64,000 nt of DNA, taken from positions 62,001 through 126,000 of the forward strand of contig JAPPNI010000034.1 of assembly GCA_028873865.1 (NCBI GenBank), written 5' to 3'. Source of the stretch: Chloroflexota bacterium (GTDB taxonomy: Bacteria; Chloroflexota; Dehalococcoidia; Bin125). Each line of letters begins with the position of its first letter. Position 1 is the first letter of the stretch. Shown in pieces: positions 2,258-6,986 of the stretch. Below the pieces are notes generated by a model. That model saw only the letters and a program-made list of their open reading frames with translations, was not told the origin of the DNA and made no database searches. The position numbers were made by a program, and so were the translations under genes.

Positions 2258-3469
2258 CTAATCCGTCATCTGCGCCAGTTCGAAGTCCCGGAGATCGGCT
2301 TCTGGCGCATGCGTGAGCGCGACGCCGAGCAGCCGCGTCTCGGCGAGAAGTAGTTGAGCGTCGACAAGCTGTTGGTCTGAGGCATCAGCTCGGGCCAGCA
2401 AAATCGCGCCGGAGGAGGACCGGGCCACAGCGGTCGAGGAGATGTCGCATAGCGGGTCGGTCAGCAGCAGCACATATCCGTCCGGACGCACCGCGCGCGC
2501 AGCGCTGCGCAGGATCAGTTCCCAGCGCTCGACCGGCGACCAGGAGACTCCGTTCAGCCACGCGGGAGGCGTTTCATATGTGATCTCGAACGCCGGACGC
2601 CGGGCGTCCAGCCAGATCACCGTTCTGCCGCGGGCCGCGAGTGTGCGGGCGGTTTGAATCAAGGTCGCCGTGACTCCCGATGCCTCGTCGAGCGGGACGA
2701 TCGCGACGATTCCGAAGAGCGGATTGATCGCATTGGCCAGCCTGACCGCATCGTCACTCGATGCACCACGTTCCTGCGTGGCGGCGATCGGGGCGACGGA
2801 CTGGTGTGTCGCGCCCTGTTGCGCGGCCTGTTCGGCCTCGGGCGAGATGACGACGATCGGACGCAGCCCGATTCGGCCGAGCCGACCGAGCGTCGTGCTG
2901 GGGGTCTGGGCCCGGTTTGCCACAAGCCATGCCAGCCCGAGTCCTCCGACCAGGCCGAGCGCTGAGGCCCAGGCGGCCGTCCACTCGGTGTCCGGAGCCA
3001 CTTTGCGGGCTCCCGGCCGGACCAGGCCGAGCACCTGCAGGCCGGCCTCGTCGCCATAGCGGTTGATCGCCTCACCGATCCCGGCGTGTGCCAACGCGAC
3101 CGCCAGGGCTTCGGCGTCAGTCTGGCGAGACGAACGCACCGTCACCCTGATCAAGGTGTCGGTCAACTCGACGGAAACGCCGCCGATGACAGGCAAACCC
3201 TCCTCGGTGGCCATCATGCCGCCGGTGGCGGCATCCTGTACGTCGGTGTCCAGAAAGAGTTCGGCGTACTCGGACGCAGGCAGACCTTCCTGGGCCCAGA
3301 GGTGCACATCTGCGTCCCAGGCGGCGACTGTCGATTGCGAGACGATGACGCCGATCAGGGCCGCCATGACCGCCGTAATGATCGGCAGCCACCAGGGGAA
3401 CCCGTCCTTGAGGCCGAGGGATCCGGTCACAGGTCCGAGTGTATCCGTCGACCGCGTTGGCCGAACCAA
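2258..3469 (-). CDS. Wzz-like membrane protein fused to a kinase-like domain lacking Walker A
   Basis: 403 residues. There are membrane segments at about 27-46 and 165-184 flanking an extracytoplasmic alpha/beta stretch, the topology of polysaccharide co-polymerase (Wzz) domains. The cytoplasmic C-terminus (about 205-400) has the order of a bacterial tyrosine kinase (Wzc/CapB) P-loop domain: a beta strand, a loop, a helix, then VIWLDARRPAF in place of the VLLIDxDxRRP strand. However, the loop that should read GEGKS/T is DEASGVTA (261-268), so the P-loop Lys is missing. It may act as a structural or regulatory subunit in surface-polysaccharide export. No glycosyltransferase operon is adjacent. 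The start used is a TTG; an in-frame GTG at 3430 is an alternative. Confidence 0.5.
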   Translation of the reverse strand: MVRPTRSTDTLGPVTGSLGLKDGFPWWLPIITAVMAALIGVIVSQSTVAAWDADVHLWAQEGLPASEYAELFLDTDVQDAATGGMMATEEGLPVIGGVSVELTDTLIRVTVRSSRQTDAEALAVALAHAGIGEAINRYGDEAGLQVLGLVRPGARKVAPDTEWTAAWASALGLVGGLGLAWLVANRAQTPSTTLGRLGRIGLRPIVVISPEAEQAAQQGATHQSVAPIAATQERGASSDDAVRLANAINPLFGIVAIVPLDEASGVTATLIQTARTLAARGRTVIWLDARRPAFEITYETPPAWLNGVSWSPVERWELILRSAARAVRPDGYVLLLTDPLCDISSTAVARSSSGAILLARADASDQQLVDAQLLLAETRLLGVALTHAPEADLRDFELAQMTD

Positions 3470-3593: not shown

Positions 3594-6500
3594 ATGCGAC
3601 GAGCCATTCTGTTGTTGGCCCTGGCAGTTGTTGTCGCCGCTTTCTTCGCCATTGGCGCTCGCCCGGTCGAGGCTGCGGACGATCGGCTACACGTCGACGT
3701 TCGCTTCGAAACGGTTGATCCTCAGATCGAGCAACGGCTGATCGACAGCGGCTTCGAGATTGAGCTCTCGATGCCTGAGCTCGGGCGCTGGCAAGGCTGG
3801 TTGCCAGCTCATCTGTTGGACAATCTCCGGGCATTGGAGGGTGTGGCCTCGGTCCGGACGCCTCGCTACGCGAGCTTCGCCGCCGGTGACACGCTGACCG
3901 AGGGGGACGAACTGCTCAATGCCGCATCGGCTCGGCGTCGGTTCAACGTGGACGGCAGTGGGGTCCGCGTCGCTGTCATCTCTGACGGGATCGTTGGCCT
4001 GGACGAGGCCATCCGGGCCGACGAAGCGCCGCGGCTTGCCGAGGCGCGGCCATTTGGGGGCGGCAGCCTGGATCGCGGCGAGGAAGGGACCGCGATGATC
4101 GAGATCGTGCACGACCTCGCCCCTGGCGCGTCGATCTCGTTCGGCGCGGTCTACACCGATCTGGATCACATCGCCGCCGTCAAACACTTCGCGAAGAAGG
4201 TCGACATCATCGTCGACGATGTGTCTTTTGCGTTTCCAGGGAACCAACGAAGCGACGTGTCGCTCAATACGACGAGAGCATTGCGTCATCCGGAATGGCC
4301 GCTCAGGCTGTATGTCACAGCGGCCGGTAACTGGGCCGAGTCTCATTGGACGGGACTGTGGCAGGCAGGCCCGGACGGTTCGCTGCTTGGGCTTCCTTCG
4401 TCAGGGGCGGTGCATCAGTTCAACGACTCCAGCGGCGCGGAGTCGCTCTTCGGCGCCGGCAACAGCTTCAACGTGGACCCCGACGACGAGATCCGCCTGG
4501 CGCTGTTCTGGGACGATCTCTGGGGGCGTTCGACCAATGATTACAACCTCTACCTCTTGTCGGGGGTCGGCGAGATCCTCGCGTCCAGCCAGATCACGCA
4601 AGCCATCGGCGTGGACAACCACGACCCACGGGAACATCTCACGTACACGCATGAGGGCGAAGCCACGGAATTGTTCGCTGTCATCCAGAATCGCAACGAC
4701 GACGCGCAGCCGGTCACGTTCGACCTCTTCGGGTTCCGCGGCAACGGCGAGCAACTTCGCCTGAATCACCGGACGCCGCAGGGCAGCATTCTCGCTCAGT
4801 CGGACGCCGAGGACGCGTTGACAGTAGGAGCGGTCAACGTTGGCCGGCAATCCGTTGCGGCCTATTCGAGCCGAGGACCCACCATCAACGGAGCGCCCAA
4901 GCCTGAACTGAGCGCGGTGGATGGCGTGTCGGTCTCAGAGACGACGCACTTCGGTCCGCGGTTTTCGGGATCCTCAGCGGCGGCGCCGCACGTAGCGGGT
5001 GTGGCGGCCCTGTTGCTCCAGGCCCAGCCCGCGCTGCGCGCTGGCGACGGCGGCAATCCCTTGCTCGAACGTCGGCTGATCCGGGACATCCTGATCGAAA
5101 CGGCCAGCGACATCCCTCCTGACGGCGCCGACCCGGCGTCGGGAGCGGGCTTGATCGATGCCGACGGCGCGCTCGAGATGGCCGCGACCGTCGTGGCTGT
5201 GGTTGAATCCAGCTCGGACGATGGTCCAGGGTCGTTCAGAGCTGCGATAGCGAGCGGCGCATCGATCGTGCTGTTCAGCGAGGCGCCGGACCAGCGGCGC
5301 ATCATCCTCGGATCAGAACTGCCGATCCTTGGGGACGGACTGACCATCGACGCAACCGGTTGGACCCTCGACGCCTCGGGGGTCAGCATCGGTTTGCGAA
5401 TCGGCGACGACACGGAACTGTGGGGGCTGTCCCTCACCGGCGCGCAGCGGGTTGGCATCGTGATCGCCGGCGACTCAAGCCGTCTCGTCGATGTGACGGT
5501 CGACGACAACGAAGTGGGTATCCGAGTCGACGGTGAGGATGCAATGCTGGAAAGGGTGAGGGTGCTGAGAGGAAGAACGAACGGAGTTGAGGTCTCGAAC
5601 CATGCATCCGTAGCGATCTCAGCCAGCGAGTTCGACGCGAACCAGGGCGCCGGTGTGAGGATCGCTCCCGCGGCGGGAGATGTGACGATCGGCCCCGACT
5701 CGGAACCTCCGACGCCAGCAAAAGCCAGCGAACTGCATGCGCCGATCGGTGCGCTGGAGTCCGCGTTTCCGCTGCCCCGCTCCGGCTTGAGCCATACGAT
5801 CATCGGTTCGGTCAGTAGGGACGGCTTGCCGGCCAGCCAGGGCACGCGCGTGGATGTTTACCTGGACAGGCGATTGACCGCGTCTGTCGCCGTCGACCAG
5901 GCCGCCAGCTTCAGAGCGACGGTGACGGGTCCAGGAACCGAGCTGCGCTTCGCTGTTGACGGTGCGGCCGCGGCGCAGCGAGTCAAATTTGAAGCCGGGG
6001 CCAGGACGACAATCACACTCCGTGCGGTCAGCCCGCTCAAGCTGCTCGCGGTCGGGACATCAGACGAGCATGTCGCAGGGGCGAATCTGTTCCGCAACAA
6101 CCTCACAGGCATAGAGATCGTGGCGGGAACGGGCGAATCAGGCGGTCGCCGTTTTATCTGGGGCAATCTGATGCAGCGCAACCGGACCAATGTGACATCG
6201 TCGCTATCCACGCCGACGATCAGCGAAGTGAGTTGGTCGGCGTCGGGCCTCAGCCTGTACGGGAACGCCGAGGGCGCTGAAGTTGCGCACTTGTACGCCG
6301 GAACAGCCGGAGAGCGTCGATTCGTCGGAGCGGCGACGACCGTTCAAGGCCAGTTTGCCTTCGAGCATCTCGACATCGCCTCGACGGCCACTGAGTTCTC
6401 CGTGATCGCACACAGCGCGGATGGAATCGCAAGCCCGGAAAGCAAGGTGCACACGGCGCCGACCACTGGATCGATCGCCAGCATCACGCCCGACTCGGGC

Positions 6501-6986
6501 TACGTCGACGGCGGCGAGTCCGTGCAAATCTGCGGCAATGGCATTGCGACCGACGCCGAGGCTCCCAGAGTCTGGTTCGGCAATCTGTCCGCCCGAGTGA
6601 TCTTCTGGTCCGGCGAGTGCGTGACGGTCTTGACCCCGCGCTACCACGTAGGCCCGGCCGATGTCGCCCTGTTGCTCAATCGCTCCCGGCCGATCGTCGC
6701 ACTTGAGGCGTTCGAATATCGGACCGTACGAGTCGTCAGCTTGAAGCAGGGTCGCAACTTCGTCACCTGGACAGGCTCCGATACTCGCGTGACGACGGCC
6801 TTCTCCTCGCTGGCAGGAGCGACGTTCCGCGCCTACGCATGGGACGGAAATGCCCAACAGTGGCAGATCTTCTCGACCGATCTCCCGGCCCGGCTGAACA
6901 CCCTGCGCACGCTCAAGCATGACCAGCCGCTCTGGATTCTGCTGGACTCCGAGGACATCGACTGGGAACAACCAGCGCCCGACTGA
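3594..6986 (+). CDS. large secreted subtilisin-like (S8-fold) protein with beta-helix and TIG-like domains
   Basis: 1130 residues with a signal peptide at about 1-27 (cleavage near VEA-AD). The catalytic domain has Asp131 in VAVISDGI, the oxyanion-hole Asn246 in TAAGNW, and the nucleophile Ser461 in FSGSSAAAPHVAGVAALL. The block that normally reads HGTxxA reads EGTAM, putting Glu164 where the catalytic His should be. A domain inserted between Asn246 and Ser461 (about 265-400) looks like a pre-peptidase-type beta sandwich. Downstream are a right-handed beta-helix-like region (about 530-720), a TIG/IPT-like domain (about 955-1045), and a C-terminal NFVTWTG...LWILLDS domain of a kind I recall from Chloroflexota surface proteins. 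It is likely extracellular; whether it is an active protease is uncertain because of the His-to-Glu change. Confidence 0.75.
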   Translation: MRRAILLLALAVVVAAFFAIGARPVEAADDRLHVDVRFETVDPQIEQRLIDSGFEIELSMPELGRWQGWLPAHLLDNLRALEGVASVRTPRYASFAAGDTLTEGDELLNAASARRRFNVDGSGVRVAVISDGIVGLDEAIRADEAPRLAEARPFGGGSLDRGEEGTAMIEIVHDLAPGASISFGAVYTDLDHIAAVKHFAKKVDIIVDDVSFAFPGNQRSDVSLNTTRALRHPEWPLRLYVTAAGNWAESHWTGLWQAGPDGSLLGLPSSGAVHQFNDSSGAESLFGAGNSFNVDPDDEIRLALFWDDLWGRSTNDYNLYLLSGVGEILASSQITQAIGVDNHDPREHLTYTHEGEATELFAVIQNRNDDAQPVTFDLFGFRGNGEQLRLNHRTPQGSILAQSDAEDALTVGAVNVGRQSVAAYSSRGPTINGAPKPELSAVDGVSVSETTHFGPRFSGSSAAAPHVAGVAALLLQAQPALRAGDGGNPLLERRLIRDILIETASDIPPDGADPASGAGLIDADGALEMAATVVAVVESSSDDGPGSFRAAIASGASIVLFSEAPDQRRIILGSELPILGDGLTIDATGWTLDASGVSIGLRIGDDTELWGLSLTGAQRVGIVIAGDSSRLVDVTVDDNEVGIRVDGEDAMLERVRVLRGRTNGVEVSNHASVAISASEFDANQGAGVRIAPAAGDVTIGPDSEPPTPAKASELHAPIGALESAFPLPRSGLSHTIIGSVSRDGLPASQGTRVDVYLDRRLTASVAVDQAASFRATVTGPGTELRFAVDGAAAAQRVKFEAGARTTITLRAVSPLKLLAVGTSDEHVAGANLFRNNLTGIEIVAGTGESGGRRFIWGNLMQRNRTNVTSSLSTPTISEVSWSASGLSLYGNAEGAEVAHLYAGTAGERRFVGAATTVQGQFAFEHLDIASTATEFSVIAHSADGIASPESKVHTAPTTGSIASITPDSGYVDGGESVQICGNGIATDAEAPRVWFGNLSARVIFWSGECVTVLTPRYHVGPADVALLLNRSRPIVALEAFEYRTVRVVSLKQGRNFVTWTGSDTRVTTAFSSLAGATFRAYAWDGNAQQWQIFSTDLPARLNTLRTLKHDQPLWILLDSEDIDWEQPAPD

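Follow-up and report, generated by a model that had tools for sequence, protein, structure and literature searches.

A stretch of 64,000 nucleotides from a Chloroflexota bacterium (Dehalococcoidia, Bin125; contig JAPPNI010000034.1, positions 62,001 to 126,000), here called the window, encodes a secreted subtilase in which Glu stands at the position of the catalytic His. The gene (window positions 3594..6986, forward strand, as are all of its features given below) starts with ATG and, from its open reading frame (ORF) and translation, specifies 1130 amino acids plus a stop. The protein is probably an active, secreted, propeptide-bearing serine-carboxyl peptidase using Ser461, Glu164 and Asp209, with Asp131 in an auxiliary role. 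It has a predicted fold of the subtilisin class, belongs to a family in which four positions have changed jointly, and is under strong constraint.

Active-Site Residues of the Glu-Type Subtilase

The active site of subtilisin savinase comprises five segments, as defined in PMC11593635, namely: acid (LDTG, 31-34), base (HG, 64-65), CHO (NLS, 123-125), oxyanion (ASGN, 152-155), and nucleophile (TS, 220-221). The counterparts in the window protein were ISDG (129-132), EG (164-165), VDD (207-209), AAGN (243-246), and SS (460-461). Alignment of VAVI-S-D-G-I with the subtilisin L-D-T-G block placed Ser130 at the catalytic Asp32 and Asp131 at residue 33 (Ser130-Asp131, positions 3981..3986), the latter directly following the strand that bears the classical Asp. 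Glu164 (4083..4085) was aligned with His64 and was the first residue of a helix in the AF2 model (model residues 136-147). Ser461, the putative nucleophile (4974..4976), lay near the start of another helix (model residues 432-449). The positions of the classical Asp32-His64-Ser221 triad were thus occupied by Ser130, Glu164, and Ser461. Asn246 (4329..4331) corresponded to the oxyanion-hole Asn155 of subtilisin. The Asp208-Asp209 pair (4215..4220) brought a new Asp, Asp209, to the place where subtilisin has Ser125 (CHO3 in the numbering of PMC11593635). Asp208 closed a strand of the model (model residues 177-180) and Asp209 followed directly after it.

An earlier note on this DNA had placed Glu164 at the catalytic His position, which the alignments confirmed, and its numbering of Asp131, Glu164, Asn246, and Ser461 was correct. 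Its description of a subtilisin-type frame with a Glu recalling the sedolisins was likewise supported. The preserved triad Asp that it saw in Asp131 was off by one, the Asp32 position being Ser130. The active-site set in that note therefore stood for Glu164, Asn246, and Ser461 and omitted Ser130 and Asp208/Asp209, the residues that set the family apart.

Conservation Among Relatives

A related-genome search gave matches in 38 of 61 genomes (E-value up to 0.001). Nineteen of these 38 genomes were outside the family of the window genome, 12 of the 19 with E-values weaker than 1e-20, and seven further stretches were added. More relatives came from named genome contigs (best 80 of 483), one viral contig, six genomes, and four phylum samples, and a later profile-search step contributed 47 rows, for a joint alignment of 169 rows. 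Three rows were removed: L053a and L093a, which were judged to lie outside the family, and one fragment without column 164. In the remaining 166 rows, including the window row, residue 164 was Glu in 122, His in 43, and Ala in one. After rows at least 95% identical were dropped, 108 Glu rows remained, the window row included, and Glu164 is therefore not a product of chance or sequencing error.

Conservation was counted in a set filtered to less than 60% identity, which contained 112 rows: 75 Glu-type (including the window protein), 36 His-type, and one with Ala. Position 130 was Ser in 74 Glu rows and Gly in one, and Asp in all 36 His rows. Position 209 was Asp in 73 Glu rows and Asn in two (L018 and L069); it was Ser in all 36 His rows. 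Position 208 was Asp in 71 Glu rows, Glu in two, Asn in one, and Ser in one. Position 131 was more variable (Asp 67, Asn six, Thr two), and since it is also one residue beyond the Asp32 position, Asp131 was rejected as the triad Asp. Asn246 was in place in 73 of 75 Glu rows (one Ser, one Tyr) and in 36 of 36 His rows, and Ser461 in 75 of 75 and 36 of 36, as the earlier note had it for the window protein. The homologue survey which that note proposed thus found Ser461 never lost and Asp131 lost in eight of 75 rows. Among the invariant residues of the Glu set were Ser461, Gly165 (75/75), Gly459, and, by definition of the set, Glu164. Position 168, four residues after the Glu, was Met in the window protein and Met, Leu, or Ile in 75 of 75 Glu rows. 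Every one of the 75 Glu rows retained at least one of Asp131, Asp208, and Asp209; L069 retained Asp131 alone and L018 retained Asp131 and Asp208. Ser130 and Asp208-Asp209 were present in each of the 30 Glu rows from the profile search, a number of which repeat loci already collected; the profile itself was built mostly from Glu rows.

Asn at position 209 (Asp-Asn) was seen in two genomes of the window's genus, at loci L018 and L019, as well as at L044, whose contig is as long as that of L019. These rows offer a natural test of which Asp matters.

Comparison with His-Type Subtilases, Sedolisins and Ordinary Subtilases

Sedolisin (S53) rows were taken from Chloroflexota genomes by way of the Pro-kumamolisin domain PF09286, found in 55 of 201 genomes; a sedolisin domain was obtained from 22 of 30 loci. 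Ordinary subtilase rows came from the same class (a subtilase domain from 18 of 30 loci). Before alignment, the S53 set was reduced by six near-identical rows and the ordinary set by two rows with long inserts, and five family rows were left out (L053a, L093a, L074, L040, and L030). The resulting four-group alignment contained 65 Glu-clade rows, among them the row with Ala at 164, together with 21 His-type, 16 S53, and 16 ordinary rows.

Asp at position 209 was confined to the Glu clade, where 63 of 65 rows had it; all 21 His-type, 16 sedolisin, and 16 ordinary rows had Ser. Column 130 was Asp in all 16 ordinary subtilases and all 21 His-type relatives. Asp four residues after the Glu was found in 16 of 16 S53 rows, which had been gathered with a motif requiring it, and in no Glu-clade row. 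The oxyanion position showed the same split, with Asp in all 16 S53 rows and in none of the Glu-clade rows. In column 461, two S53 rows lacked Ser, which was assumed to be misalignment. A Pro-kumamolisin domain (PF09286) was not detected in the window protein (E-value up to 10), and the window genome, 94.9% complete, had no match to it. Membership of the window protein in the sedolisins was ruled out by the missing Asp four residues after the Glu, the Asn of the oxyanion hole, and the missing Pro-kumamolisin domain.

The distance from the base residue to the Pro of the AP motif was exactly 13 residues in 121 of 122 Glu rows (the other row had no Pro), in 43 of 43 His-type rows, and in 22 of 22 S53 rows, the last gathered with a motif allowing 9 to 20 residues. 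In the first ordinary set, 11 of 18 rows were measurable and all had 20 residues or more. In a wider PF00082 set, 76 of 90 loci gave a row and 39 of the 76 were measurable, the other 37 being unmeasurable by pattern; 38 had 20 residues or more, of which at least two (L158 and L163) rest on a wrong HG motif, and one had 13. This lone row, L269, overlaps L235, a His-type row from the same contig, and so represents the same gene. The shared 13-residue loop suggests that Glu-type, His-type, and S53 proteins belong together; it is a lead and not proof.

A tree was built from rows chosen for diversity (24 of 65 Glu, 16 of 21 His, 12 of 16 S53, and 13 of 16 ordinary) with seven active-site columns excluded. 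Each group formed one clade, with bootstrap/SH-aLRT support of 100/97, 99/88, 100/100, and 100/96. Glu-type and His-type sequences were joined at 98/78, which makes the His-type sequences the nearest group, though not securely. The approximately unbiased (AU) test accepted both Glu with S53 (p 0.561) and Glu with ordinary subtilases (p 0.53), and these constrained trees scored slightly higher, by 1.51 and 0.93 log units. The deep branching order is thus not fixed by the tree. The 98/78 support would suit an origin of the Glu independent of the sedolisins, but the AU result (p 0.561) does not bear it out; tree and test are compatible with the Glu having arisen once or twice relative to sedolisins.

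Predicted Structure

The AF2 model of residues 29-545 (pLDDT 92.7, pTM 0.92, 82 sequences) contained a subtilisin-type propeptide followed by a subtilase domain, with a beta-sandwich between the oxyanion-hole and serine blocks. The top VIA-align matches were to pro-subtilisin: 3whi_B (Z 37.0, root-mean-square deviation 3.2, 321 residues) and 3afg_A (Z 36.9, root-mean-square deviation 3.6, 326 residues). The alignments to 3whi, 3afg, and 2e1p began at model residue 1 or 2. The top Foldseek matches were Csp germination proteins, with template modelling (TM) scores to the query of 0.56-0.69 in the first eleven rows, alignments of 590 or more columns including gaps, and about 15% identity. S53 structures were absent from the 50 best Foldseek and the 50 best VIA matches, which is no evidence of absence. 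Sequence matches in the PDB (39, and also the best 60 of 180) were S8-type proteins or proteases by name, save one cyclodextrin glucanotransferase.

The model of residues 541-1130 (pLDDT 84.1) contained short strands of beta-helix type, beta-sandwiches, and a TIG domain. For this C-terminal half Foldseek gave only generic beta-domain matches among the best 50 (TM to query up to 0.26).

Selective Constraint

Nonsynonymous (dN) and synonymous (dS) divergence from congeneric genes differed between the two halves of the protein. The pro- and catalytic part had dN of 0.167-0.235 and dS of 1.15-1.99, whereas the C-terminal part had dN of 0.278-0.440 and dS of 1.21-1.62. The dN/dS ratio was about 0.10-0.16 in the protease half versus 0.22-0.30 in the C-terminal half, with synonymous sites near saturation. 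The protease half was the slower-evolving in six of six comparisons, representing five distinct genes (L007 and L041, on contigs of equal length, gave identical catalytic values and were counted as one gene). Genes L005-L008 end early, and their C-terminal comparison covered 499 codons versus 585.

Proposed Mechanism and Alternative Explanations

In the proposed mechanism, the Ser-His-Asp relay would be replaced by a carboxyl relay on the subtilisin fold. Ser461 would be the attacking nucleophile, and Glu164, at the place of His64, would take its proton. Carried by the strand that usually provides Ser125, Asp209 would hold and share a proton with Glu164, occupying the space freed by the Asp32 to Ser130 change. 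Asp131 and Asp208 would be auxiliary, and Asn246 would retain the ordinary oxyanion hole. The working range would be acidic to neutral pH, and the enzyme would remove its own propeptide. The beta-helix, TIG, and C-terminal domains may anchor it at the cell surface or on its substrate. In solved serine-carboxyl peptidases the catalytic acid has moved from its own segment to that of the base while keeping the same place in space (PMC11593635); with the acid already relocated there, a third location, on the CHO strand, is plausible.

Several observations weigh against this mechanism. The nearest Foldseek folds include a pseudoprotease, and the PMC literature, which lacks most subscription papers, yielded neither a structure nor an assay for a Glu-type member. 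Of the two peptide search patterns, one contained SDG, which favours Ser130-Asp131 rows. The joint change falls on a single branch of the tree, perhaps as a single event, which means that the conservation counts are not independent. Position 164 is Ala in the Sumerlaeota sequence L066, which belongs to the Glu clade and keeps the Asp-Asp pair, the Asn, and the Ser; this sequence is a candidate natural knock-out. Finally, with Asp209 replaced by Asn in two of 75 rows (L018, of the window's genus, and L069), Asp208 or Asp131 could be the partner of Glu164.

An active serine-carboxyl peptidase with Asp131 (or Asp208) as that partner, close to the triad of the earlier note, is the least doubtful of the alternatives, and is still doubtful. 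Asp131 directly follows the strand of the classical Asp; of the 75 rows, 67 have Asp at 131 and 71 at 208, and the two Asn rows at 209 also speak for it. Position 131, however, is one residue beyond that of Asp32, and Asn or Thr replaces the Asp there in eight of 75 rows, whereas Asp209 is retained in 73. In the contact tables of PMC11593635, the side chains of subtilisin residues 123 and 125 contact each other near a water that also touches Asp32, whereas residue 124 figures by its backbone alone. From these contacts we infer that position 125 faces the acid, and hence that Asp209 rather than Asp208 faces the active site. A different possibility is that the subtilase is catalytically dead and persists as a folded part of an adhesin on the cell surface. 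In its favour, neither the classical His nor Asp32 remains, the C-terminal half is long and rich in beta structure, and the top Csp matches include the pseudoprotease CspC. This explanation is nonetheless unlikely: Ser461 (75/75), Gly165 (75/75), and Asn246 (73/75) are kept across two domains of life, the protease half is under stronger constraint than the C-terminal half, and the new acids arrive together, without drift. The gene is also the sole PF00082 match in the window genome (G000), as its counterpart is in G010 (two of two genus genomes in the scan). The earlier note had offered a hybrid acid-type protease and a dead adhesion scaffold as alternatives, and the former is the better of the two; the latter is disfavoured by the invariant Ser461 and the six of six comparisons.

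Four conserved acids (Glu164, Asp131, Asp208, and Asp209) on the three segments that form the subtilase active site could in principle bind a metal ion, the domain then being a metal-dependent binder or regulator. Such a role is quite improbable, as it accounts neither for the invariance of the nucleophile, nor for the oxyanion Asn, nor for the propeptide. Least credible of all is another histidine, His173 or His466, acting as the base. His466 is present in 68 of 75 Glu-type rows, but it is replaced in the other seven and also occurs in 29 of 36 His-type rows, and it is therefore not the replacement base. In the model, Glu164 heads the helix that bears His173, which also occurs in some His-type rows. 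Catalysis by Ser461, Glu164, and Asp209 is the explanation that we favour over these.

Domain Layout, Gene Context and Distribution

A signal peptide (residues 1-27, positions 3594..3674) was recognized by eye from MRR, a hydrophobic stretch, and a cut after VEA. It was followed by the subtilisin-type propeptide (about residues 28-103, 3675..3902; AF2 model and VIA alignments to pro-subtilisin structures). The first part of the catalytic domain (residues 104-255, 3903..4358) was delimited by the family alignments and the model. Inserted in the catalytic domain was a beta-sandwich of jelly-roll or PPC-like type (about residues 256-396, 4359..4781), indicated by model strands and the Csp matches. 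A match to PPC (PF04151) somewhere in the protein was found in five of the 82 rows of a family alignment. The second part of the catalytic domain (residues 397-545, 4782..5228) carried most of the PF00082 match, which covered residues 383-519 only (E-value 2.4e-17, 63.6 bits versus a cut-off of 21.8). All 82 rows of the family alignment matched PF00082 (E-value up to 0.001).

A beta-helix-like region of short strands (about residues 558-700, 5265..5693) was seen in the model and in sub-threshold Beta_helix/NosD matches. A TIG/IPT domain (PF01833; residues 961-1030, 6474..6683) scored 35.4 bits versus a cut-off of 20.9. Of the C-terminal domains named in the earlier note, TIG was therefore upheld; Beta_helix (PF13229) was below its cut-off, with strands of beta-helix type in the model. 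A C-terminal module (residues 1048-1122, 6735..6959; pattern LxxGxNxVxWxG) recurred in two other ORFs of the genome, L002 and L003. One of these is M23-like, and the other has a HEYIH metallopeptidase motif and N-terminal copies (both named by eye). The module common to the three ORFs is possibly a surface-binding module.

A 403-amino acid ORF adjoining the gene (window positions 2258-3469, reverse strand) had no Pfam match at E-values up to 0.001. The neighbouring genes were mostly metabolic, and no functional link between them and the subtilase was found. A promoter and terminator scan returned no promoter-like sites and three terminator-like sites versus 2.2 expected. Phage origin of the gene was considered, and no phage match was found. 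Plasmid origin was also considered; seven plasmid records matched, none spanning 80% of the query: six from Haloarcula (25-29% identity over about 70%) and one from Chroococcidiopsis (42% over 18%). One Glu-type relative, L121, was on an IMG/VR viral contig of 38 kb.

As annotated, the taxa of the Glu rows spanned Bacteria and Archaea and included: Chloroflexota, Acidobacteria, Actinobacteria (Amycolatopsis, Actinocrispum), Hymenobacter and other Bacteroidota, Planctomycetota, Proteobacteria, and methanogens. Frequencies were scanned with the 82-row family alignment (E-value up to 1e-40), counting Glu-type and His-type matches together and including the genome at the centre of each sample. Matches occurred in four of 99 genomes in the phylum of the Hymenobacter genome (G357, locus L106), seven of 100 in that of a Methanomicrobiales genome (G354, L060), 10 of 99 in that of an Isosphaeraceae genome (G355, L116), and nine of 100 in that of an Amycolatopsis genome (G356, L105). 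A profile search of the window's own phylum matched 171 of 301 genomes and was not used for counts, because many of its matches span the general serine half only. The Hymenobacter genome held seven Glu-type paralogues, three of them in tandem (C100:10942-17723; L187, L190, and L199).

Relation to Known Systems

Siezen, Renckens and Boekhorst reportedly predicted two novel subtilase subsets in 2007, one Glu-His-Ser and one sedolisin-like. In the latter, the base is said to be a Glu, and the Asp to be carried by a beta strand at a similar location and not by the helix of the Glu. By its description, Asp208-Asp209 of the window protein would fit this strand-Asp subset, and we take the CDD entry 'Peptidases_S53_like' to stand alongside it. 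None of the matched Pfam and NCBIfam models names the strand-Asp subset, and no experiment on it was found in the PMC literature, subject to the same gap in subscription papers. In the Glu-His-Ser subset, SprP is an active enzyme, and its S499A substitution abolishes activity (PMC3937732). The window protein thus belongs to a predicted and apparently experimentally unexplored branch of the subtilases. The Ser130 change and the contrast with the His-type relatives were worked out in the present analysis.

The nearest fold matches by Foldseek were the Csp germination proteases and pseudoproteases (CspA, CspB, and CspC), which we take to share a jelly roll in the subtilase domain with the window protein and to differ from it in their active-site changes. 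They also differ in their germination context, and the window protein scored 31.6 bits on the NCBIfam model germ_prot_CspBA, far below the cut-off of 1250. The His-type S8 subtilases, with motifs like HGTAVAEIVxDxAPGA, have the same DYDL-type inserted region as the Glu-type proteins. Unlike them, they keep the classical Asp130, His164, and Ser209 (36/36 each). Profile libraries class the Glu-type proteins as S8 subtilases despite the missing classical triad; should they prove active, many bacterial and archaeal groups would possess secreted serine proteases of a carboxyl type.

Sedolisins are the textbook serine proteases with Glu where relatives have His. In the Glu-type family the oxyanion Asn of subtilisin survives, and close relatives combine an unbroken His triad with a loop of equal length; mutating either kind towards the other could therefore reveal in which order the changes came. 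Its interest lies in this testable route from Ser-His-Asp to Ser-Glu-Asp. Like the window protein, the sedolisins (MEROPS S53; kumamolisin, sedolisin) have a subtilisin fold, a Ser nucleophile, and Glu at the His64 position. Unlike the window family, with Met/Leu/Ile, Asp, and Asn at the respective positions, they have Asp four residues after the Glu, Ser at 209, and Asp in the oxyanion hole. Tentatively, the Glu-type subtilases may represent a third active-site layout on the subtilisin fold, and Glu-type, His-type, and sedolisin proteins may form one short-loop lineage that records the Ser-His-Asp to Ser-Glu-Asp conversion, either as an intermediate or as a second independent conversion. The supporting acid lies on its own segment in subtilisin and on the helix of the base in sedolisins; in the third layout it would lie on the Ser125 strand.

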